Assembly (NCBI GenBank): GCA_009746045.1
Contig: RPFO01000114.1
Location: 1,997,411 to 2,061,410 of the forward strand
Reading direction: 5' to 3'
DNA: 64,000 bases
Origin: Mesostigma viride
Taxonomy: Eukaryota > Streptophyta > Mesostigmatophyceae > Mesostigmatales > Mesostigmataceae
The notes under the pieces are model-generated. The model worked only from the letters and a program-made list of their open reading frames with translations, did not search any database and had not been told where the DNA came from. The translations under genes and the position numbers were made by a program. This document shows positions 15,331-36,984 of this stretch, piece after piece (position 1 is the stretch's first letter; each line of letters opens with the position of its first letter).

Positions 15331-15740
15331 TATCAAAGAGACAACCAGCGCAGGCCAGAAATCGGGAGAATCCGGACCATGGTAGCTCGAGCCTGCCGTT
15401 ATCTTTTCCGCGTTTTCGAGTCGTTCAGGATGATGAAGATGAATGGTGATGGAAATGTGTATCCTTGTGCATTGAAATTATGGCTGGCTTACGTGTGGAG
15501 CGACTAGATGACCTAGACGGTGGGGCCGGAAACAGCATGCTTGATCAGGGCGTGTGTTTCTAGCCTAACTGGCCGGGAGTGTCTAGTGGTGAGCACCATT
15601 GCTGCGATCGCTCTCCCACCATTTACGAGGAAATACCCGCAAATGGAAAACCACTGAAAAGGTCTAGCTAGTCAGTCATCACGTTAGCCATGCCATGATT
15701 CCAAACGTCCAAGAACTGCACACGGTGCAAAGGCAAAAAG
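15331..15740 (+). mobile_element. LINE 3' fragment (plus) inside the left arm of element A
   Basis: Reads KETTSAGQKSGESGPW followed by the same 3' tail as the minus-strand LINE at 1022-1432. It lies tail-to-tail with the Penelope-like RT and interrupts the minisatellite of element A. Confidence 0.85.
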
Positions 15741-21915: not shown

Positions 21916-21918
21916 ATA
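21916..21918. other. left target-site duplication of element C (ATA)
   Basis: ATA precedes CCCCAAACACCC here and follows GGGTGTTTGGGG at 36982-36984. One copy is needed to restore the copia frame, which supports a 3-bp duplication. Confidence 0.8.
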
Positions 21919-22149
21919 CCCCAAACACCCGTAGGTTTGGTAAATTACCACATTTTTGGTAAAATTTTAAAAACTGAATATTTTTGCTTGTCTGACTCAT
22001 ACTTGGTGCAGGATGCCTCGAGAAATGTATTTGGACCAAAAAACCTTACCCCCCCCCACGAAATTGACGTGAAGGTGCTTTTCAGGGCATTTTGTGCCAA
22101 ATATGACATGTCAATTTTTCCTGACTGCAGTTTTGCTCATACATAGGCC

Positions 22150-24570
22150 CATATGTGGTGGTTAAGGTCTATCTAGTGCCCCAAGAGGGATTGCAAAGTT
22201 GCACATTTTTTGGATACCTGCAGGGGTCCCAACGGTGACGTCAAGTAGCATAAAAACCGCGATGTGGCACGATTTTAGCCCGTTTAGGCACCCTAGACCA
22301 TGCAAATGAGCTCAGATTGCAGCCAAACTTGGCAGCTGCCCTTGCCATGCTGATAAAAGAACATGTGCAAAGTTGCACATTTTTTGGATGCCTGCAGGGC
22401 ACCCTGGGTGACGTCAAATAGCATAAAAACCGCGTTTTTGCTCGGTTTTAGCCCATTTCGGCACCCTAGACCATGCAAATGAGCTCAGATTGGAGCCAAA
22501 CTTGGCAGCTGCCCTTGGCATGCTGATAAAAGAACATGTGCAAAGTTGCACATTTTTTGGATGCCTGCAGGGCACCCTGGGTGACGTCAAATAGCATAAA
22601 AAATGCATTTTTGCTCAGTTTTAGCCCATTTATGCACCCTAGACCATGCAAATGAGCTCAGATTGGAGCCAAACTTGGCAGCTGCCCTTGCCATGCTGAT
22701 AAAAGAACATGTGCAAAGTTGCACATTTTTTGGATGCCTGCAGGGCACCCTGGGTGACGCCAAGTAGCATAAAAATAATTGACGTGAAGGCGCAAATACG
22801 ACATGTCAATTTTTTCTGGCTGCAGTTTTGCTCTAAACATGGCCCATATGTGGTGGTTAAGGTCTATCTAGTACCCCAAGAGGGATTGCAAAGTTGCACA
22901 TTTTTTGGATACCTGCAGGGGTCCCAACGGTGACGTCAAGTAGCATAAAACCGCATTTTTGCTCGGTTTTAGCCTGTTTAGGCACCCTAGACCATGCAAA
23001 TGAGCTCAGATTGCAGCCAAACTTGGCAGCTGCCCTTGCCATGCTGATAAAAGAACATGTGCAAAGTTGCACATTTTTTGGATGCCTGCAGGGGTCCCAA
23101 CGGTGACGTCAAATAGCATAAAAACCGCGTTTTTGCTCGGTTTTAGCCCATTTAGGCACCCTAGACCATGCAAATGAGCTCAGATTGGAGCCAAACTTGG
23201 CAGCTGCCCTTGCCATGCTGATACACGAACATGTGCAAAGTTGCACATTTTTTGGATGCCTGCAGGGCACCCTGGGTGACGTCAAATAGCCTAAAAACCG
23301 CATTTTTGCTCGGTTTTAGCCCATTTAGGCACCCTAGACCATGCAAATGAGCTCAGATTGCAATCAAACTTGGCAGCTGCTCTTGCCATGCTGATAAAAG
23401 AACATGTGCAAAGTTGCACATTTTTTGGATGCCTGCAGGGCACCCTGGGTGACGTCAAGTAGCATAAAATTAATTGACGTGAAGGCGCAAATACGACATG
23501 TCAATTTTTTCTGGCTGCAGTTTTGCTCTAAATATGACTCATATGTGGTGGTTAAGGTCTATCTAGTACCCCAAGAGGGATTGTAAAGTTGCACATTTTT
23601 TGGATACCTGCAGGGGTCCCAACGGTGACGTCAAGTAGCATAAAACCGCATTTTTGCTCGGTTTTAGCCCATTTAGGCACCCTAGACCATGCAAATGAGC
23701 TCAGATTGCAGCCAAACTTGGCAGCTGCCCTTGGCATGCTGATAAAAGAACATGTGCAAAGTTGCACATTTTTTGGATGCCTGCAGGGCACCCTGGGTGA
23801 CGTCAAATAGCATAAAAACCGCGTTTTTGCTCGGTTTTAGCCCATTTCGGCACCCTAGACCATGCAAATGAGCTCAGATTGGAGCCAAACTTGGCAGCTG
23901 CCCTTGGCATGCTGATAAAAGAACATGTGCAAAGTTGCACATTTTTTGGATGCCTGCAGGGCACCCTGGGTGACGTCAAATAGCAATAAAAATGCATTTT
24001 TGCTCGGTTTTAGCCCATTTATGCACCCTAGACCATGCAAATGAGCTCAGATTGCAACCAAACTTGGCAGCTGCTCTTGCCATGCTGATAAAAGAACATG
24101 TGCAAAGTTGCACATGTTTTGGATACCTGCAGGGCACCCTGGGTGACGCCAAGTAGCATAAAATTAATTGACGTGAAGGCGCAAATACGACATGTCAATT
24201 TTTTCTGGCTGCAGTTTTGCTCTAAATATGACTCATATGTGGTGGTTAAGGTCTATCTAGTACCCCAAGAGGGATTGTAAAGTTGCACATTTTTTGGATA
24301 CCTGCAGGGGTCCCAACGGTGACGTCAAGTAGCATAAAACCGCGGTTTTGCTCGGTTTTAGCCCATTTTGGCACCCTAGACCATGCAAATGAGCTCAGAT
24401 TGCAGCCAAACTTGGCAGCTGCCCTTGCCATGATGAAAAAAGAACATGTGCAAAGTTGCACATTTTTTGGATGCCTGCAGGGCACCCTGGGTGACGTCAA
24501 ATAGCATAAAAGCCGCATTTTTGCTCGGTTTTAGTCCGTTTAGGCACCCTAGACCATGCAAATGAGCTCA
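22150..24570 (+). repeat. 173-bp satellite, left arm of element C
   Basis: About 14 monomers of about 173 bp. Two monomer types alternate: one with CATGCAAATGAGCTCAGATT and one with CGCAAATACGACATGTCAAT. They form a higher-order repeat of about 694 bp (four monomers; compare 23404 with 24098). Nearly every monomer carries the palindrome TGACGTCA or a one-base variant. The many 60-90-codon open frames (MHGLGC..., MCKVAH...) are translations of this satellite. Confidence 0.95.
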
Positions 24571-24853
24571 GATTTCACCCTAACTTTCCATATTGCAAAA
24601 AGAACACAAGTCCATGCATGCTCAGTACTGGCCAATCAATGGATTTCACATATCAGTTATCTTTGCGTAATTGACACATGGCCCCGTGCCAACCATTAAT
24701 TGATATATTGACATGACATGACATGACATGAAATCAATAAATCAAAAACGTGTGTGCATGAGGTATAGGCACATTAAAAAACATGGATAGGCAGGGAATC
24801 ATGACGACACCATTACCAAGGCGTGCGCATGCTGCGCCACCAGCCTATTATGA

Positions 24854-25647
24854 TCAATCGCGCTCCGCCTCATCCGCCTCATCATCACTGTCTACACTAA
24901 TGTCATCAATGTTTTCCATATCCGATTCATCGTCACTTGAGTGGACATCGTGGTGGATGTCGACTGTGGTGGCATTACACACCGGAGGCACAGCAGGAGC
25001 TCCCGTAGAACTGCCAGCACCATTGTCAACTTGGTACTGCTGCAAGACTTGCTCACGGCCAAAAGCATTTACACCGTAAGGGCACCCACACACAAATTTC
25101 AGCACGTCCTCTAGCTTGCTATACTCCTCATACTGCCCATCACTCCATACAAGTTTGAAAGCATGGCCCACCTTTGTAACCCACCCATGGAACCTCTTTT
25201 GCCTTCTTGGCTTGCCCGCTAAAAAGAGTGCGCATTTCCGCATGCCTATAGCAATGCAGCACTCCCTCTCTCACGGAAGTAAGATTCACATGCCACCTGG
25301 GTCGTACGTTCTGAGGCTTGCACTGTCTTGTACCCCTCAAAGTCAATGTCAGGATGAAGCTTCAAGGCATCTAGCGTCCCTTGGTTGAGCTTCCTTGCCC
25401 CCGTCAGCTTTGGCGTATGGACTACCGCCCCATTTCCAACGGTCCAGTGTTGCAAAACAATGTCGTTATATGGAACAACTAACCCCTGGTTGCTTTGCCC
25501 ACTGGCCGACCCTGCCCCCAGGTGCACCTTATTGAACTGCCCGGTCCACGAGCTGGCGTGATATGGCGCAACCACGATGGAATCTGGGGTTGGCCCATCC
25601 AAGTCAATAACCTGCGCCAACATGTGGCCCATCCAAAACACGTGCAT
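24854..25647 (-). pseudogene. coding relic inside element C (two frames)
   Basis: Two adjacent minus-strand frames meet at 25243-25246, as if one gene were broken by a frameshift or intron. The upstream frame (25647 to 25246) includes SIVVAPYHASSWTGQFNKVH. The downstream frame (25243 to 24854) includes FHGWVTKVGHAFKLVWSDGQ then YEEYSKLEDVL, similar in pattern to Agenet/Tudor-like segments of some transposon proteins, and ends in an acidic tail (SSDDESDMENIDDISVDSDD). I do not recognise a full transposase. It is the best candidate for a remnant of element C's own protein. Confidence 0.4.
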
Positions 25648-25681
25648 CGCAAAATCCCACCAAAAGCAATATTAAGTATTA

Positions 25682-25882
25682 TCAAGGAGACAACCAGCGC
25701 AGGCCAGAAATCGGGAGAATCCGGACCATGGTAGCTCGAGCCTGCCGTTATCTTGTCCGCGTGTTCGAGTCGTTCAGGATGATGAAGATGAATGGTGATG
25801 GAAATGTGTTGCCTTGTGCATTGAAATAAAGGCTGGCTTACGTGTAGAGCGACTAGATTACCTAGACGGTGGGGCCTAATTA
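25682..25882 (+). mobile_element. short LINE 3' fragment in element C
   Basis: Begins GAGACAACCAGCGCAGGCCA and matches the 3' tail of the LINE at 15331-15540. Flanked by AATTAAGTATTA-like sequence on both sides (25668-25680 ATTAAGTATTATC and 25877-25890 AATTAAGTATTATGATC). The shared TTAAGTATTA(T) looks like a target duplication of about 11 bp. Confidence 0.8.
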
Positions 25883-26227
25883 AGTATTATGATCACAACA
25901 GAAATACTGCGACGACAGCGGCCGGCAAGACCGCTATCACCCAAGGTTTCGGTGACTGCGGCCATTCGGAGAATTCGACCGATCGCGCGCATCGTACGCC
26001 TTCTGTCAGCAAGGCAACCGCCATCAATATTAATCGAATGTCTAGCATTCTCGCTCAGCCTCGCGTGTCGCTTATAGAGCACCTTTAACTTACGACGGCT
26101 ATGCGAGAAAATTGCTGCCCGAGTGCTGGGATGGTATTGCAGGCTGCATAATTCACACCAGCCCCGGCACCTTCTGCATACGCAGTGCCCGTGCACGCTG
26201 GCACGCACCGCCTGGTTGGCCAGCCTG

Positions 26228-26483
26228 TCAATTATGTCAATTATGTCAATTATGTCAATTATTTGTTTGGGAGCATTTGTAAAGTATTAGAATCTTACGT
26301 AGTTACATGGTCAAAACTACATAGTCAAAATTACTAGGTCTTGGTATCAAAGCCCTTAGAAAGTGCAGATTTTAGTGATTTTCCTTGGAAAATAAAACTT
26401 TAACATTGAAAGTCTAGCAAAAGTTTTCGCAAACAAATAATTGACATAATTGACATAATTGACATAATTGACATAATTGACAG
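26228..26483. mobile_element. small foldback element with 9-bp repeat arms
   Basis: Left arm: (GTCAATTAT)n, then TTGTTTGGGAGC. Right arm: GCAAACAAATAATTGACATA, then (ATTGACATA)n. The loop of about 150 bp has no frame. Another ACAAACAAATAATTGACAGA lies at 26571-26590, so the element may be part of a cluster. Confidence 0.8.
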
Positions 26484-26599
26484 GTCGGACGAGGACGAGG
26501 CCAGGCCTCGGCCTGGTGAGTCGAGACAAAATATAGCCAGCATTGTACGATACCTAATAATGACAGACTGTACAAACAAATAATTGACAGACTCGTGAT

Positions 26600-27870
26600 G
26601 CGACACGAGGACACAGTAAACTGGACAGGACATGCACGTGGTCGCAGTGGCCCCTGCCCAAAAGCCGCCATTTCACAAGCAGCCAACTGCCAAGCAACGT
26701 CGAAGGATTGTTCGTCGCAATGCTATGAATCTGTATAGTCGTATAGACGGCAACATGCGAATTCGGCAGAGGACTACCCATTCCGGCTCAAACCATGTCT
26801 ATTTTATTTGCCATCAATGAGTAATGCGAATTGGTCGTTGGTCAACGGTTTAGTTTTCGTTGCTCAGTCGTTTCGAAGAGGTTTTATTTATAGGCAGCTG
26901 GCAGAATGACATACTTCGGAGGTCCTGGGGTAATGGGTTCTCTTGCGTCCTGGAATGTTGCTATTAAACATCTAGAGACACTGCATGACGGGAGAAAGTC
27001 CGGTTGCTGGCTTGGCTAATACCACACCGCGGAAGTACGGTGAAAGGTAGCGCGCTGACCAACCGAGAGTTCGAGTATATTTACAGATCTGCTGTTATAA
27101 TAATAATGAATGTTTTGGCATTTTCTCAAGGGGAAATTCTTTTTTTCCCGTGCGAGCACGAGGACTGGCTGCTGATCAATTTTGCAACTCGTGCAGGCCC
27201 TTGATGAATCGAACTTGAGCAGCTGAATACTGCAAGCTGCTGGTGATGCTCACGAGAACGGCTATGTTGGCATTCTCGGCACCATCCATTGGAAACGTGC
27301 AGTCGCGGAACCTATTCCTGGTGAAATGAAGTTTCGGGCAATGGGATTGCAGACTGGACCGGAAGTGGTCGAACCTTGACCCCGATGGCGGTGATGACCA
27401 GTTGTCCTATTGTGACACGCGATCGAGGCAATCAAAAGGTAAGAAGGGCGGGTGTTTTCGAGGCTGAAGCTGTTAAAAAATATGGGCTTAAGTGCGCATG
27501 CAGCATGACCAGGCGTGGACCCTGAGGAGGAAATCAAACTTAGCCCTGCACTTTCTTGGCGTACTTTTGGTTAAGCATTGGCTGGCCGAGTGGCCGTTAC
27601 CACAGTCCGTTGCTTACCACAGTGGCAGGAAGAAATTCGCTTTATTTGCAATGATGAACATGTTAATTGATGTGGGGAAGCATTTTTAGGTGATAGTACA
27701 TTGCAACATCTTACTAGGGCCTATCTATAGATTTATCGTTGTGTGAGGCACACCAATCCCTATCCACAACTGTAGCGGCCATCCAGCTGTGTGAGACTCA
27801 CTCATGCGAGCACATATGCTCGATTGGGTAATGCGTAGACTAAGTACTAACAGAGGCAGGCCTCCCGACG
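26600..27870. other. interior of element C, no gene recognised
   Basis: Unique sequence. A segment at about 27044-27085 (GGTAGCGCGCTGACC...GTTCGAGT) faintly resembles parts of a tRNA but has no foldable cloverleaf. No frame has recognisable content. Confidence 0.4.
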
Positions 27871-27877
27871 GCACCCA

Positions 27878-28400
27878 CCCACCCACCCACCCACCCACCC
27901 ACCCACCCACCCGCCCACCCGCCCGCCCGCCCGCGCCCGCCCGCCCGCCCCCGCCCGCCCACCCGCCCGCCCGCCCGCGCCCGCCCGCCCGCCCGCCCCG
28001 CCCGCCACCCACCCACCCACCCACCCACCCACCCACCCACCCACCCACCCACCCACCCACCCACCCACCCACCCACCCACCCACCCACCCACCCACCCAC
28101 CCATGACCCACCCACCCACCCACCGGCCACCCACCCACCCACCGGCCACCCACCCACCCACCCACCCACCCACCCACCCACCCACCCACCCACCCACCCA
28201 CCCACCCACCCACCCACCCACCCACCCACCCACCCACCCACCCACCCACCCACCCACCCACCCACCCACCCACCCACCCACCCACCCACCCACCCGCCCA
28301 CCCACCCACCCACCCGCCCACCCACGCACCCACCCACCTGCACCTACCCACCTGCACCTACCCACGGGCCACCCACGTACCACCCACCCACCCACCCATT
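27878..28400 (+). repeat. (CCCA)n/(CCCG)n tract in element C
   Basis: About 520 bp of CCCA and CCCG tetramers, C-rich on plus and G-rich on minus; it could form G-quadruplexes on the minus strand. THPPTHPP and GGWVGGWV open frames are artefacts. Confidence 0.95.
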
Positions 28401-28429
28401 TGAAATGTCGTATTCGCGCCTTCACGTCA

Positions 28430-31400
28430 AATAATCTTATGCTACTTGGCATCAGCCAGGGTGCCCTGCAGGTATCCAAAAATGTGCAACGTTGCAAATG
28501 TGCTTTTTGCAGCATACCAAGGGCAGCTGCCGAGTTTGGCTGCAATCTTCAGGAGCTCATTTGCATGGTCTACGGTGCCTAAGCGGGCTGAAATCGTGCG
28601 ACATCGTGGTTTTTATGCTACTAAACGTCACCGTTGGGACCCCTGCAGGTATCCAAAAAATGTGCAACTTTGCAATCCCTCTTGGGGTACTAGAGAGACC
28701 TTAACCACCACATATGGGCCATGTTTAGAGCAAAACTGCAGCTAGGAAAAATTGACATGTCGTATTTGCACCTTTCACGTCAATTATTTTTATGCTGCTT
28801 GATGTCACCCAGGGTGCCCTGCAGGTATCCAAAACATGTGCAACTTTGCACATGTGCTTTTTGCAGCATGGCAAGGGCAGCTGCCAAGTTTGGCTGCAAT
28901 CTGAGCTCATTTGCACGGTCTAGGGTGCCTAAATGGGCTAAAACCGAGCAAAAACGCGGTTTTTATGCTATTTGACGTCACCCAGGGTGCCCTGCAGGCA
29001 TCCAAAAAATGTGCAACTTTGCACATGTTCTTTTATCAGCATGGCAAGGGCAGCTGCCAAGTTTGGCTGCAATCTGAGCTCATTTGCGTGCACGGTCTAG
29101 GGTGCCTAAACGGGCTAAAACCGAGCAAAAACGCGGTTTTTATGCTATTTGACGTCACCCAGGGTGCCCTGCAGGCATCCAAAAAATGTGCAACTTTGCA
29201 CATGTTCTTTTATCAGCATGGCAAGGGCAGCTGCCAAGTTTGGCTGCAATCTGAGCTCATTTGCATGGTCTAGGGTGCCTAAACAGGCTAAAACCGAGCA
29301 AAAATGCGGTTTTATGCTACTTGACGTCACCGTTGGGACCCCTGCAGGTATCCAAAAAATGTGCAACTTTGCAATCCCTCTTGGGGTACTAGATAGACCT
29401 TAACCACCACATATGGGCCATGTTTAGAGCAAAACTGCAGCCAGGAAAAATTGACATGTCGTATTTGCGCCTTCGCGTCAATTAATTTTATGCTACTTGG
29501 CGTCACCCAGGGTGCCCTGCAGGTATCCAAAACATGTGCAACTTTGCACATGTTCTTTTACCAGCATGGCAAGAGCAGCTGCCAAGTTTGGTTGCAATCT
29601 GAGCTCATTTGCATGGTCTAGGGTGCCTCCGGCCGCGCGCGGCAGGGCCGCCACCCGTGGACTTTTCGTGATAGACTCGGCATGGACATGTGCTACACTA
29701 GACGTGACGGGCTCACCCCCGGGCAGCCTCCTGGTTTGTCTGTAATATGGAGGCAGATGGTGCGCAAGGATAGATGGCAAGTAGTGATGAAGGAGACCAC
29801 CCCCAAGCCTGTGGGGGCTCCGCGTGTGACCAAGTATGGCATTCATAGCGATTCGGGCCGCGGTGCCCACACCCCTGTAACTAGGACCTAGATAGCTTAT
29901 ACCATCCATTCCATCCCATGTTCCCCTCCCACTGAGGACTTATGCTCACGTGACGCAGTCACGTGTCTATTAATTAATTAATTAATTAAGGGTGCCTAAA
30001 TGGGCTAAAACCGAGCAAAAACGCGGTTTTATGCTACTTGACGTCACCGTTGGGACCCCTGCAGGTATCCAAAAAATGTGCAACTTTGCAATCCCTCTTG
30101 GGGTACTAGATAGACCTTAACCACCACATATGAGTCATATTTAGAGCAAAACTGCAGCCAGAAAAAATTGACATGTCGTATTTGCGCCTTCACGTCAATT
30201 ATTTTTATGCTACTTGGCGTCACCCAGGGTGCCCTGCAGGCATCCAAAAAATGTGCAACTTTGCACATGTTCTTTTATCAGCATGGCAAGGGCAGCTGCC
30301 AAGTTTGGCTCCAATCTGAGCTCATTTGCATGGTCTAGGGTGCCTAAATGGGCTAAAACCGAGCAAAAATGCATTTTTTATGCTATTTGACGTCACCCAG
30401 GGTGCCCTGCAGGCATCCAAAACATGTGCAACTTTGCACATGTTCGTGTTTCAGCATGGCAAGAGCAGCTGCCAAGTTTGGCTGCAATCTGAGCTCATTT
30501 GCATGGTCTAGGGTGCCTAAACAGGCTAAAACCGAGCAAAAATGCGGTTTTATGCTACTTGACGTCACCGTTGGGACCCCTGCAGGTATCCAAAAAATGT
30601 GCAACTTTGCAATCCCTCTTGGGGTACTAGAGAGACCTTAACCACCACATATGGGCCATGTTTAGAGCAAAACTGCAGCCAGAAAAAATTGACATGTCGT
30701 ATTTGCGCCTTCACGTCAATTAATTTTATGCTACTTGGCGTCACCCAGGGTGCCCTGCAGGCATCCAAAAAATGTGCAACTTTGCACATGTTCTTTTATC
30801 AGCATGGCAAGGGCAGCTGCCAAGTTTGGCTCCAATCTGAGCTCATTTGCATGGTCTAGGGTGCCTAAATGGGCTAAAACCGAGCAAAAATGCATTTTTT
30901 ATGCTAGTTGACGTCACCCAGGGTGCCCTGCAGGCATCCAAAACATGTGCAACTTTGCACATGTTCGTGTTTCAGCATGGCAAGGGCAGCTGCCAAGTTT
31001 GGCTGCAATCTGAGCTCATTTGCATGGTCTAGGGTGCCTAAACAGGCTAAAACCGAGCAAAAATGCGGTTTTATGCTACTTGACGTCACCGTTGGGACCC
31101 CTGCAGGTATCCAAAAAATGTGCAACTTTGCAATCCCTCTTGGGGTACTAGATAGACCTTAACCACCACATATGGGCCATGTTTAGAGCAAAACTGCAGC
31201 CAGAAAAAATTGACATGTCGTATTTGCGCCTTCACGTCAATTAATTTTATGCTACTTGGCGTCACCCAGGGTGCCCTGCAGGCATCCAAAAAATGTGCAA
31301 CTTTGCACATGTTCTTTTATCAGCATGGCAAGGGCAGCTGCCAAGTTTGGCTCCAATCTGAGCTCATTTGCATGGTCTAGGGTGCCTAAATGGGCTAAAA

Positions 31401-31670
31401 CCGAGCAAAAATGCATTTTTTATGCTATTTGACGTCACCCAGGGTGCCCTGCAGGCATCCAAAACATGTGCAACTTTGCACATGTTCGTGTATCAGCATG
31501 GCAAGAGCAGCTGCCAAGTTTGGCTGCAATCTGAGCTCATTTGCATGGTCTAGGGTGCCTAAACAGGCTAAAACCGAGCAAAAATGCGGTTTTATGCTAC
31601 TTGACGTCACCGTTGGGACCCCTGCAGGTATCCAAAAAATGTGCAACTTTGCAATCCCTCTTGGGGTACC
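28430..31670 (-). repeat. 173-bp satellite, right arm of element C, inner block
   Basis: The same satellite as in the left arm, inverted. Here the higher-order period is 521 bp (three monomers): matching positions are 30044, 30565 and 31086. A 361-bp SINE-like element interrupts it at 29629-29989. Confidence 0.95.
29629..29989 (+). mobile_element. SINE-like insertion with 8-bp TSD in the satellite
   Basis: The insertion starts CCGGCCGCGCGCGGCAGGGC and ends with CACGTGACGCAGTCACGTGT and a TTAATTAATTAA tail. It is flanked by GGGTGCCT on both sides (29621-29628, 29990-29997), and removing it restores a normal satellite monomer. A near full-length relative is at 53697-54047 and a truncated one at 14668-14802. 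No protein is encoded. No clear pol III A and B boxes were seen. An 8-bp TSD could also fit a hAT-type element, but there are no TIRs. Confidence 0.85.
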
Positions 31671-31869
31671 ACATCATTCCAAAAAGCCATTTTTCCACCC
31701 TGAAAATTATTCTAGGATAGGCTAATGATTAGTTTGGCCTCAAATTTGGCACCAAGGTGCCTAATCAGATATCTTATGGTGGCATGTGGTCAAATAATTT
31801 TTTGGGAGTCGGCAGCATGGTAACATGGTGACATTTGCTAGCATAAAAATACCGAATTTTCAGCACTTT

Positions 31870-32620
31870 CTGGCATGTATGCGTATATAATGACATCAAA
31901 TGAACTCAGTTGGGCCTGGAACTTTGCACATGTTATAAACACATCCCATGCAGCATGCCCACAAAGTTTCAGGCTGGTTGGATCACAAAATGGTGACAGA
32001 TGCTAGCATAAATACCCCCAAAATGCAGTTTTTCAGGGTTTTCCAAGGGTTTCATCACACATATGCATATATAATGACACCAAATGAACTCAGTTGGGCG
32101 TGGAACTTTGCATATGTTCTAAACACATCCCATGCAGCATGCCCACAAAGTTTCAGGCTGGTTGGATGACAAATTGGTGACAGATGCTAGCATAAACACC
32201 ACAAAAATGCAGTTTTTCAGGGTTTTCCAAGGGTTTCATCACACATTTGCATATATAATGACATCAAATGAACTCAGTTGGACCTGGGACTTGGCACATG
32301 TTCGAAACACATCCCATGCAGCCTGCCCACAAAGCTTCAGGCTGGTTGGATGACAAACTGGTGACAAATGCTAGCATAAATACCACAAAAATGCAGTTTT
32401 TCATGGTTTTCAAGGGTTTCATCACACATGTGCATATATAATGACATCAAATGAACTCAGTTGGACCTGGAACTTGGCACATGTTCGAAACACATCCCAT
32501 GCAGCCTGCCCACAAAGCTTCAGGCTGGTTGGATAACAAATTGGTGACAGATGCTAGCATAAATACCACAGAAAAAGCAGCTTTCTATGTTCTTCCAAGG
32601 GTTTCATGGCAATCATTCCA
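31870..32620 (+). repeat. 184-bp tandem repeat in element C
   Basis: Four units with ATGAACTCAG at 31900, 32084, 32268 and 32451 (period 183-184). Each contains GCATATATAATGACATCAAA and CACAAAGTTTCAGGCTGGTT. Unrelated to the 173-bp satellite except in unit size. Confidence 0.93.
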
Positions 32621-32739
32621 CCTTGGTGTACAGAAGGTTCCAAACAACACATCATTACATTATGCATCATATTTACAATGCAGGAAGGCATACTTGGGGG
32701 CACATGCCTATAGTACAATGCATTAATAACAAAGCTCTA

Positions 32740-33135
32740 GCCAGCTAGCTAGCTATATAGTGGCTAATGCCACACCCGGGGGCACGTTCTCACGGCCCTG
32801 CATCCTTTTCCTTTTCTTCTTCTCTGCATCTGACAGGGGCCTGCCCCCCACCTTCTCATCCACCAGCCTGGTGAGCACCCTGACGTTGGTGACTTGCGTC
32901 AGCTACCCTACCCCCATGGCACGCTTGGCCTTACGCTTGGTGAAGGTGGAGGGGACCGTGGGTGCGACAGTTGGTCTGGGTTTTCATCACCCCCTTCCTA
33001 CAGTACATGCGTGTGCTCCAACGCCTAAGCAGAGAAGCACACACACACACATACACACACACACACACGTCGATCCCTTACCCACCCACCCACACACACA
33101 CACACACGTACACATGTATCCACCCACCCATGCAT
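32740..33135. other. unique segment of element C with a possible coding relic
   Basis: On the minus strand about 32760-32905 reads TNVRVLTRLVDEKVGGRPLS then DAEKKKRKRMQGRENVPPG and ends in a stop near 32758. This has a plausible composition for a protein C-terminus, but I do not recognise it. CACACA and CCCACC microsatellites follow. Confidence 0.25.
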
Positions 33136-33140
33136 ACACG

Positions 33141-33312
<172 letters not shown>

Positions 33313-33315
33313 CAT

Positions 33316-34495
33316 ACCCTCCCTCCCTCCCTCCCTCCCTCCCTCCCTCCCTCCCTCCCTCCCTCCCTCCCTCCCTCCCTCCCTCCCTCCCTCCTCCCTC
33401 CCTCCCTCCCTCCCTCCCTCCCTCCCTCCCTCCCTCCCTCCCTCCTCCCTCCCTCCCTCCCTCCCTCCCTCCCTCCCTCCCTCCCTCCCTCCTCCTCCCT
33501 CCCTCCCTCCCTCCCTCCCTCCCTCCCTCCCTCCCTCCCTCCCTCCCTCCCTCCCTCCCTCCCTCCTCCCTCCCTCCCTCCCTCCCTCCCTCCCTCCCTC
33601 CCTCCCTCCCTCCCTCCCTCCTCCCTCCCTCCCTCCCTCCCTCCCTCCCTCCCTCCCTCCCTCCCTCCCTCCCTCCCTCCTCCCTCCCTCCCTCCCTCCC
33701 TCCCTCCCTCCCTCCCTCCCTCCCTCCCTCCCTCCCTCCCTCCCTCCCTCCCTCCCTCCTCCCTCCCTCCTCCCTCCCTCCCTCCCTCCCTCCCTCCCTC
33801 CCTCCCTCCCTCCCTCCCTCCCTCCCTCCCTCCTCCCTCCCTCCCTCCTCCCTCCCTCCCTCCCTCCCTCCCTCCCTCCCTCCCTCCCCCTCCCTCCCTC
33901 CCTCCCTCCTCCCTCCCTCCCTCCCTCCCTCCCTCCTCCCTCCCTCCCTCCCTCCCTCCCTCCTCCTCCCTCCCTCCCTCCCTCCCTCCCTCCCTCCCTC
34001 CCTCCCTCCCTCCCTCCCTCCCTCCCTCCCTCCCTCCCTCCCTCCCTCCTCCTCCCTCCCTCCCTCCCTCCCTCCCTCCCTCCCTCCCTCCCTCCCTCCC
34101 TCCCTCCCTCCCTCCCTCCCTCCCTCCCTCCCTCCCTCCTCCCTCCCTCCCTCCCTCCCTCCCTCCCTCCCTCCCTCCCTCCCTCCCTCCCTCCCTCCCT
34201 CCCTCCCTCCCTCCCTCCCTCCCTCCCTCCCTCCCTCCCTCCCTCCCTCCCTCCTCCCTCCCTCCCTCCCTCCCTCCCTCCTCCCTCCCTCCCTCCCTCC
34301 CTCCCTCCCTCCCTCCCTCCCTCCCTCCCTCCCTCCCTCCCTCCCTCCCTCCCTCCCTCCCTCCCTCCCTCCCTCCCTCCCTCCCTCCCTCCCTCCCTCC
34401 CTCCCTCCTCCCTCCCTCCCTCCCTCCCTCCCTCCCTCCCTCCTCCCTCCTCCCTCCCTCCCTCCCTCCCTCCCTCCCTCCCTCCCCCCTCCCTC
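33316..34495 (+). repeat. 1.18-kb (CCCT)n block
   Basis: Polypyrimidine on plus, polypurine on minus, with occasional single-base deletions (CCT). It could form triplexes. The 525-aa SLPPSLPP and 508-aa GREGGREG frames are repeat translations. Confidence 0.97.
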
Positions 34496-34499
34496 ATTC

Positions 34500-35505
34500 A
34501 TACACCCGTTCATTCATGCATGCAGCCGCTCATCATTAACACGCCTCCGTTGGGAAACTCACGGGGTATGAACTATGAAACGGGCGGTAAGAAAGGAAGA
34601 AGGAGCCGCCTCCCCAACATGCCGCCCGGCAAAGGCAGCGATGGGCCGTCCAGGAGGGAAACACTGCGCTTTCCCTTGTACGCCGGGGTGCGCAGGCGAC
34701 GTGCGGGCACTGTCGCGTGTAAATTTGCCTGCCCGCCCCAGTCCTTCTCGGAACGCCTCCCCAGAGCATGCCGTCATGGTAAGAGCTCTTTTCGCCCGTC
34801 GCCGGAAGCTTAAACAACAAGAATACGCCGGTTAATGACCAGAAAATGGGGGGTTGTCGACGTTATAAACCAGTAGCTGTGGTTTTTCCCGCACCCCGAG
34901 CACACTCCGGACGGGGCCAGCAAGCCCCGCCCGCAGGATAAACACCGGCGATGTTGCTGCGCCCAAGGTAAGTCATATAGCTGCAAGAAAAGACGTAAAA
35001 GCGATTAAAAGCACGACATGCAGTGTTGCCCCTGTCAGCGCTCCTATAATTCTCACTTTTTCGCGGAAGGGGCGTAAAAATCGGAAACGCAAAATTAAGG
35101 GAAATCCATCGCTGGGTTTCTTTGAAATGATGTTAGGAACTGGTAGAATGTGTCCATAACCAACGAGAGCATGTTTTTCCTGTCTGTGTTTTACCTTGCA
35201 CACACACGGGTCGGGCCGGTTGGTGTGCAAAACGCCCGCCTGCTGCCCACGTGCCCTCGCTGCAGAAAAAAAAGAAACTGTTTTTCAGGTTTTTTAATGT
35301 ACGATAATTTTCCTTATGTAATTGCCGTCCGAACAAGCGAAATAACGTCCAAAATGGTTGCGTAATCAGCTCGCAATAAATTTTCGCGTCACCATAGCCG
35401 TGCACACCGAATTTCAGTCAACATTGCACGGCACACCGAATTTCGTCAAATTTCGCGCGGGAATTACCGGGGTGCGCAAGGCGCGGCGTCGGACTGATGT
35501 GACTA
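34500..35505. other. unique segment of element C, no gene recognised
   Basis: Several overlapping short frames on both strands, none with recognisable motifs. It separates the simple-repeat block from the outer satellite block. Confidence 0.4.
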
Positions 35506-36800
35506 GAGAGACCTTAACCACCACATATGGGCCATGTTTAGAGCAAAACTGCAGTCAGGAAAAATTGACATGTCGTATTTGCGCCTTCACGTCAATTATT
35601 TTTATGCTACTTGGCGTCACCCAGGGTGCCCTGCAGGCATCCAAAACATGTGCAACTTTGCACATGTTCTTTTATCAGCATGGCAAGGGCAGCTGCCAAG
35701 TTTGGCTCCAATCTGACCTCATTTGCATGGTCTAGGGTGCCTAAATGGGCTAAACCGAGCAAAACTGCATTTTTTATGCTATTTGACGTCACCCAGGGTG
35801 CCCTGCAGGCATCCAAAAAATGTGCAACTTTGCACATGTTCGTGTATCAGCATGGCAAGGGCAGCTGCCAAGTTTGGCTCCAATCTGAGCTCATTTGCAT
35901 GGTCTAGGGTGCCTAAATGGGCTAAAACCGAGCAAAAACGCGGTTTTTATGCTATTTGACGTCACCCAGGGTGCCCTGCAGGCATCCAAAAAATGTGCAA
36001 CTTTGCACATGTTCGTTTATCAGCATGGCAAGGGCAGCTGCCAAGTTTGGCTGCAATCTGAGCTCATTTGCATGGTCTAGGGTGCCTAAACAGGCTAAAA
36101 CCGAGCAAAAATGCGGTTTTATGCTACTTGACGTCACCGTTGGGACCCCTGCAGGTATCCAAAAAATGTGCAACTTTGCAATCCCTCTTGGGGTACTAGA
36201 TAGACCTTAACCACCACATATGGGCCATGTTTAGAGCAAAACTGCAGCCAGAAAAAATTGACATGTCGTATTTGCGCCTTCACGTCAATTATTTGTATGC
36301 TACTTGGCGTCACCCAGGGTGCCCTGCAGGCATCCAAAAAATGTGCAACTTTGCACATGTTCTTTTACCAGCATGGCAAGGGCAGCTGCCAAGTTTGGCT
36401 CCAATCTGAGCTCATTTGCATGGTCTAGGGTGCCTAAATGGGCTAAACCGAGCAAAAACGCGGTTTTTATGCTATTTGACGTCACCCAGGGTGCCCTGCA
36501 GGCATCCAAAAAATGTGCAACTTTGCACATGTTCTTTTATCAGCATGGCAAGGGCAGCTGCCAAGTTTGGCTGCAATCTGAGCTCATTTGCATGGTCTAG
36601 GGTGCCTAAACAGGCTAAAACCGAGCAAAACCGCGGTTTTTATGCTACTTGACGTCACCGTTGGGACCCCTGCAGGTATCCAAAAAATGTGCAACTTTGC
36701 AATCCCTCTTGGGGCACTAGATAGACCTTTACCACCACATATGAGTCATATTTAGAGCAAAACTGCAGTCAGGAAAAATTGACATGTCATATATTTGGCA
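35506..36800 (-). repeat. 173-bp satellite, right arm of element C, outer block
   Basis: About seven monomers, inverted relative to 22150-24570, ending in subterminal sequence that matches the inner edge of the left terminus. Confidence 0.93.
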
Positions 36801-36984
36801 CCAAATGCCCTGAAAAGCACCTTCACGTCAATTTTCTGACACAAGCCATAAAAAATTTTTGGTCAGAACATTGTTTTGGTGTTTTTCCCAACCATATGCG
36901 TCATTGAAGACCAAAAAACGCATATCTCAAAAAATTTGGTTTTGGTAAATGCAAATTTACCAAACCTACGGGTGTTTGGGGATA

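Follow-up and report, generated by a model that had tools for sequence, protein, structure and literature searches.

We conclude that a 15,063-bp insertion in the genome of the green alga Mesostigma viride very probably (probability roughly 0.87) belongs to a non-autonomous, foldback-type family of DNA transposons, whose arms are inverted satellite arrays derived from the element's own subterminal sequence. The insertion occupies positions 21919-36981 of the window, by which we mean the whole 64,000-nucleotide stretch that was analysed (C1757:1997411-2061410 of an assembly of 439.9 Mb in 2,243 contigs). The arrays belong to the inserted unit, and the copies are discrete insertions with 28-bp terminal inverted repeats (TIRs) and 3-bp target duplications. 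It is a long-standing question how satellite arrays arise and come to occupy new places on chromosomes. In this family, empty-site comparison proves the insertion sites of young copies, and these copies show directly that arrays are carried along as cargo and afterwards lengthen or shorten inside the unit. In addition, the likely parent of the repeat, a long form of one unit type (B), is still present at the ends, so that the birth of the satellite becomes traceable.

The insertion in the window

The insertion lies within a copia element and is bounded by perfect 28-bp TIRs, with the duplication ATA at 21916-21918 and 36982-36984; the 27-bp terminus had no chance match in 100 shuffles. A first-pass annotation of the window, made from the sequence alone, had proposed these 28-bp inverted ends (at 21919 and 36981) and a 3-bp duplication, as well as a copia frame that reads through without the insertion. 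These claims held, and the frame is open across the site once the local flanks are joined with a single ATA. The copia element itself (19278-40716) has 432-bp long terminal repeats (LTRs) with zero differences and a 5-bp duplication, GTTTT. Given the identity of its LTRs, the copia element is young, and the insertion inside it is younger still. The corresponding empty site, a 27-base pattern with one ATA, was matched 89 times exactly and 93 times at ≤3 mismatches genome-wide (reversed control, 0); most simply, these are other copia copies that were never hit. The features of the insertion are listed below by coordinates, strand and kind, with the basis of each assignment in brackets where one applies.

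21916..21918, no strand, target duplication ATA, left copy (flank comparison)
21919..21946, plus strand, 28-bp TIR, left (terminus comparison)
22066..22094, plus strand, subterminal long form of the B unit, left, 29-mer (sequence match)
22098..24586, plus strand, left satellite array, ~173-bp units in AAAB order (unit comparison)
24587..27871, no strand, core, common to the 12 full copies (copy comparison)
24857..25671, minus strand, two overlapping open frames of 138 and 141 amino acids, related to the C-terminal part of another transposon family's protein (frame listing and protein comparison)
27872..28398, no strand, CCCA-type simple repeat from core to right arm (repeat listing)
28400..29628, minus strand, right satellite array, inner piece (unit comparison)
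29629..29988, plus strand, nested 360-bp insert with TTAA-rich tail and AGGGTGCCT repeats at both sides, resembling a long interspersed nuclear element (LINE) by eye
29989..31669, minus strand, right satellite array, middle piece (unit comparison)
31670..35501, no strand, 3.8-kb nested insert containing a 184-bp tandem array and simple repeats, found in none of the 11 other full copies
35502..36792, minus strand, right satellite array, outer piece (unit comparison)
36801..36829, minus strand, subterminal long form of the B unit, right, 29-mer with 1 mismatch (sequence match)
36954..36981, minus strand, 28-bp TIR, right (terminus comparison)
36982..36984, no strand, target duplication ATA, right copy (flank comparison)

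The arms had been described as opposed 173-bp satellite arrays. Opposite arrays are indeed present (22098-24586, plus strand; 28400-36792, minus strand), but the right arm is broken by the 360-bp and 3.8-kb inserts, and a 3.3-kb core and the CCCA tract lie between the arms.

A genome-wide family

The 20-base terminus has 45 exact matches in the genome (reversed control, 0). A subterminal 29-mer has 48 matches at ≤2 mismatches (control, 0), of which 42 adjoin an exact terminus and six give new ends. The family totals 51 ends, comprising 20 convergent pairs and 11 single ends, and no arrangement other than convergent was found among neighbouring ends within 50 kb, genome-wide. Twelve pairs (the window copy and 11 others) were read from end to end and are hereafter called full copies; three more were read at their ends, and five of the 20 (C113, C1421, C1579, C1846 and C1923) are known from positions alone. 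Flanks are the same over 300/300 positions in C1945 and C446, and over 98% of 155 in C1531 and C655; all of these were counted as separate ends.

Full copies range from 8,401 to 18,293 bp. All 12 carry the 28-bp TIR, with ends reading CCCCAAACACCC, and all follow a common plan of terminus (~180 bp), inward array, core (~3.3 kb), opposite array and terminus, the opposed arrays beginning ~182 bp from either end. The core is well conserved: measured against C1793, identity is 96.9-100% for the two main pieces and as low as 88% for short ones, and divergence among the 12 copies is 0 to 1.3% over the 2.9 kb compared. The CCCA tract after the core was seen in the window copy and in C1793. An exact 3-bp duplication flanks 11/12 full copies and 13 of the 15 pairs with both junctions read, among them the end-read pairs C2133 (CTG) and C1857 (GAG).

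The first-pass annotation had inferred a DNA-transposon-type insertion with the satellite arms as part of the mobile unit. Opposed arrays in every full copy and duplications at 13/15 pairs confirm this, and the genome-wide checks that it proposed came out in its favour. Termini are paired with inverted satellite in 12/12 full copies and at 18/19 further termini, where the inward satellite spans 68 to 719 bp of the ~720 bp examined. Empty sites accompany the duplications: C1793 is inserted in a 232-bp tandem repeat, of which four units nearby contain the exact empty site with one CTG; no unit was found with CTG twice or without it.

The middle base of the target duplication is, by eye, A or T in 13/13, perhaps a target preference. 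The ends of C1857 (C1857:743555-791926) lie 48 kb apart yet share the GAG duplication, and this may be one element swollen to 48 kb through nested insertions.

Origin and distribution of the satellite

The arrays consist of two unit types, A and B, each ~173 bp and ordered AAB or AAAB (415 units counted in the 12 copies). The first-pass annotation had assigned a 694-bp period to the left arm and a 521-bp period to the right; these correspond to AAAB and AAB, respectively. The left arm in the window is entirely AAAB, as claimed, but over the 12 copies both orders occur in both arms. Between Bs, A-runs of length 2 and 3 number 22 and 20 in left arms, and 11 and 34 in right arms; in addition, three runs have four As and one has a single A.

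B is the first unit from the end in 24/24 ends of the full copies. Its long form was found at 23/24 ends, the right end of C1793 being the one missed, and nowhere inside. Because this long form adjoins the ends, the satellite looks home-grown, that is, the element's own. A 38-base A motif has 254 exact matches in the genome (control, 0), a search that covers close units only, as diverged units (e.g. near C239) escape it. One hundred of the 254 were placed and 154 were not; of those placed, 69 lie within a terminus pair, 30 lie ≤15 kb inward of a single terminus, and one lies outside. The latter is a three-unit fragment, 92-93% identical and without a terminus, near the end of contig C374. Free arrays seeded by the element were therefore not seen by this exact search, 1/100 placed matches (of 254) lying outside elements. 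The proposal that the element seeds satellite DNA thus stands as far as the carriage of arrays to new sites (C1793 and C2043, below), but not for free arrays.

A units differ by 7-8%, alike within an array, between arms and between elements. Since this far exceeds the divergence of the core, the diversity of the arrays predates the spread of the copies. The one A unit examined contains the palindromes CCTGCAGG, TGACGTCA, TGAGCTCA and GGCAGCTGCC, which we would guess to be putative protein-binding sites.

Arrays travel and change in length

The insertions C1793 and C2043 are distinct: neither their flanks nor their target duplications match. Their alignment of 8,397 bases shows 29 differences, and 25 of these fall in two 500-bp blocks at the simple repeat. 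As the two reside at different sites with nearly identical arrays, the arrays travel with the element, which is one route for the spread of satellite DNA. In C1435, C1480, C1646, C1793 and C2043, the cores are within 0.1% of one another and the right arms comprise 7 to 53 units, from which it follows that array length changes fast inside the element; the longest arrays in the full copies reach 9.4 kb. In the right arm of C1646, 44/52 units are matched exactly by another unit of that array, and 22 of the 44 are private to C1646 among the 12 copies, a signature of local duplication in the recent past. No such sign is seen in the long right arm of C335b (0/26). Opposed arrays of kilobase length could also make inversions and hairpin formation more likely.

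Several inserts in the arrays of C446, C655, C1368 and C2111, as well as the one at 29629-29988 of the window, were seen by eye to have A/T-rich tails together with direct repeats of satellite, and look as if a LINE-like element favours the satellite. The 3.8-kb insert (31670-35501) has its own 184-bp tandem array, and its ends resemble, by eye, an inverted repeat (CACATCA).

The core frames and the search for a transposase

The frames in the core represent the C-terminal piece of a protein, in broken form. Among five window proteins, Pfam gave matches for the two copia proteins only, and the 141-residue core frame has no homologue among 5.8 billion proteins at E 0.001. Within the genome, the 150 scored matches to the core frame comprise 25 rows at 24 loci that are 88-100% identical and 125 at 53-54%. 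Two of the latter loci, when compared, proved to be an 8.65-kb transposon that makes 3-bp duplications and has ends beginning CCC. This transposon (L067:85-8739 and L068:107-8761) is very abundant in the genome and holds a 626-residue frame, the product of which has two homologues, with source names of the form jgi Mesvir1, and no Pfam family above the cut-off. The predicted structure of the conserved part of this protein had a mean predicted local distance difference test score of 42 and was not used.

Several candidates for an autonomous member were rejected. The 4.1-kb stretch outside the family in C1648 resembles, by eye, a gypsy-type retroelement, the insert in C1435 is of low complexity, and the sequence behind the C1958 terminus resembles a retroelement by eye. 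In C1613 and C239, relatives of the core were found in which both core and satellite have diverged. A search for Transposase_21 gave 239 candidates; all 150 that were scored exceeded the cut-off, with hits in 0/14 control genomes, and inspection by eye placed none of the 150 within any of the 20 pairs. Judged by these matches, the genome is rich in predicted CACTA-type transposase genes.

Proposed mechanism and alternatives

On our reading of the family, the satellite would have started as a subterminal repeat and spread inward through slippage or unequal exchange. The TIRs would be acted on by a transposase provided in trans. This enzyme is plausibly CACTA-type, because the target duplication is 3 bp and CACTA-type transposase genes are abundant. 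We do not assign the family to CACTA on this basis, since the CACTA motif is missing from the ends and the search turned up no coding copy that shares them. More speculatively, the repeated units might serve as extra binding sites that help to pair the two ends. A stronger version, which we regard as tentative and on balance doubtful, is that higher-order arrays are obligatory and functional in both arms, as inverted series of subterminal binding sites that gain and lose units within the element and are dispersed ready-made. If so, satellite birth, change and dispersal would all take place inside one element.

Several observations weigh against the foldback reading. No transposase or coding copy with the family's ends was found, P-superfamily and Harbinger-type transposases not having been searched for. 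C2111 and C1648 have no matching duplication. Satellite is short in the ~720 bp examined at some termini (68 bp in C1846, 131 bp in C2), and C1958 has a 23-bp terminus that lacks satellite, is followed by unrelated sequence and has no partner end over a distance of 9.7 kb. In C280, the sequence differs directly inside the 28-bp TIR, with satellite farther in. B units are 2.9% apart within an arm versus 4.4-5.1% between elements, which points to some local homogenisation. Finally, array lengths rest on a PacBio assembly with a read N50 of 11.2 kb.

Other explanations for the satellite arms fare worse. A transposon with TIRs could have taken up a genomic satellite and then carried it. There is precedent in a published 171-bp array within a 16.5-kb CACTA element of Chenopodium, for which the authors, in the part of the paper concerned with this array, proposed capture (PMC8978399), and the fragment without a terminus on C374 would fit such a source. 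However, 99 of the 100 placed matches (of 254) lie in or beside elements, the long form of the B unit adjoins the ends, and both arms are mirror images in 12/12 copies, so that we consider capture improbable. More improbable still is that a smaller element inserted and its arrays expanded afterwards. Array length does change inside the element, but arrays are present in 12/12 full copies, and the LTRs of the window copia element are identical over 432 bp, yet array units are ~7% apart (a figure from all copies). Moreover, the nearly identical arrays of C1793 and C2043 at different sites refute growth in place for the bulk of the arrays.

Folding or misjoining of repeats during assembly might also account for inverted arms. 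The assembly of strain NIES-296 is described as built from PacBio reads (read N50 11.2 kb) and optical maps (PMC6947507). The longest arrays approach this read length, and C446/C1945 and C655/C1531, with their common flanks, may be single sites assembled twice. Misjoins would not be expected to produce 20 convergent pairs with no other arrangement within 50 kb, nor matching duplications at 13/15 pairs together with empty sites, and we give an artefact next to no weight.

Relation to known elements

Long inverted arms with internal tandem repeats, characteristic of foldback-type elements, occur in 12/12 full copies, with a perfect TIR of just 28 bp, and the discrete insertion with duplication expected of such elements was seen in 13/15 pairs, plus empty sites. 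PIF/Harbinger elements have a TWA target duplication; 0/13 duplications here are TTA or TAA. Helitrons have neither TIR nor target duplication, whereas this family has a 28-bp TIR and 3-bp duplications. The 3-bp duplication at 13/15 pairs agrees with CACTA (EnSpm) elements, but the ends, CCCCAAACACCC, lack the CACTA motif that the cited account of such elements leads one to expect (PMC8978399).

The nearest known system is Tetris, a foldback element of Drosophila virilis. As described in the sections of PMC4079207 on its structure, Tetris is non-autonomous, with ~220-bp tandem repeats in variable number in both TIRs, and the repeat unit has sequence in common with its outer flanking domain, just as the long B form is found at 23/24 ends here; array length varies in both. 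In contrast, Tetris makes duplications of 8-10 bp rather than 3 bp, and its TIRs are ≤1.7 kb rather than arms of kilobase arrays. Three structurally complete copies are reported in that account, versus 12 full copies in the alga, and Tetris repeats also form long arrays apart from the flanking domain, whereas the algal satellite is hardly found outside elements. The algal arrays, unlike those described for Tetris, have a higher-order arrangement of two unit types (PMC4079207). Galileo, a P-superfamily element of Drosophila, likewise has TIRs lengthened by direct tandem repeats and nested insertions, and its longest copy, of 9,021 bp with TIRs of 4.2 and 4.7 kb, has no transposase segment in the published description. 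In the D. willistoni copies treated there, tandem repeats are given for one copy only, versus 12/12 full algal copies, and the 3-bp duplications of the alga are a further difference (PMC4168063). The Chenopodium quinoa CACTA-like element shares the 3-bp type of duplication and a 171-bp satellite within 16.5 kb. As portrayed in the portion of that paper on the element, it has one array near its 3′ end and a Transposase_21 coding region, in contrast to two opposed arrays, no transposase found and ends other than CACTA in the alga (PMC8978399). In the same genome, the 8.65-kb transposon (L067, L068) resembles the family in its 3-bp duplications (ACT, CTT), a TIR starting CCC and a protein that matches the core frame at 53% identity in its C-terminal part, but the TIR of this transposon differs past CCC and it has no inverted satellite arms.

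Transposon TIRs and internal arrays are named among satellite sources in the relevant part of a review (PMC12628747). Searches for literature on algal CACTA elements, and on higher-order satellites in TIR transposons, found no paper. The suggestion that the element represents an undescribed class was not upheld: foldback elements with tandem repeats in their arms are already known from the published accounts of Tetris (PMC4079207) and of one Galileo copy (PMC4168063), and the algal family is a large variant, new as such. What sets it apart is how large and regular it is: all full copies have opposed higher-order arrays, these demonstrably insert as a unit, and their length changes around a nearly fixed core.

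Other features of the window

The copia element occupies the left arm of an older structure (14868-49350) with mirrored arms that are 92-93% alike. The arms hold 8-, 17-, 21- and 26-bp tandem arrays, the possible ends are CCAGTGAATGGG, and the structure measures ~13 kb minus copia; by eye, it has no clear target duplication beyond AT. A 401-bp stretch occurs at 1030-1430 and 15331-15731 in opposite orientation with 100% identity, and part of it (95%) is also found in the core of the insertion, at 25680-25876.

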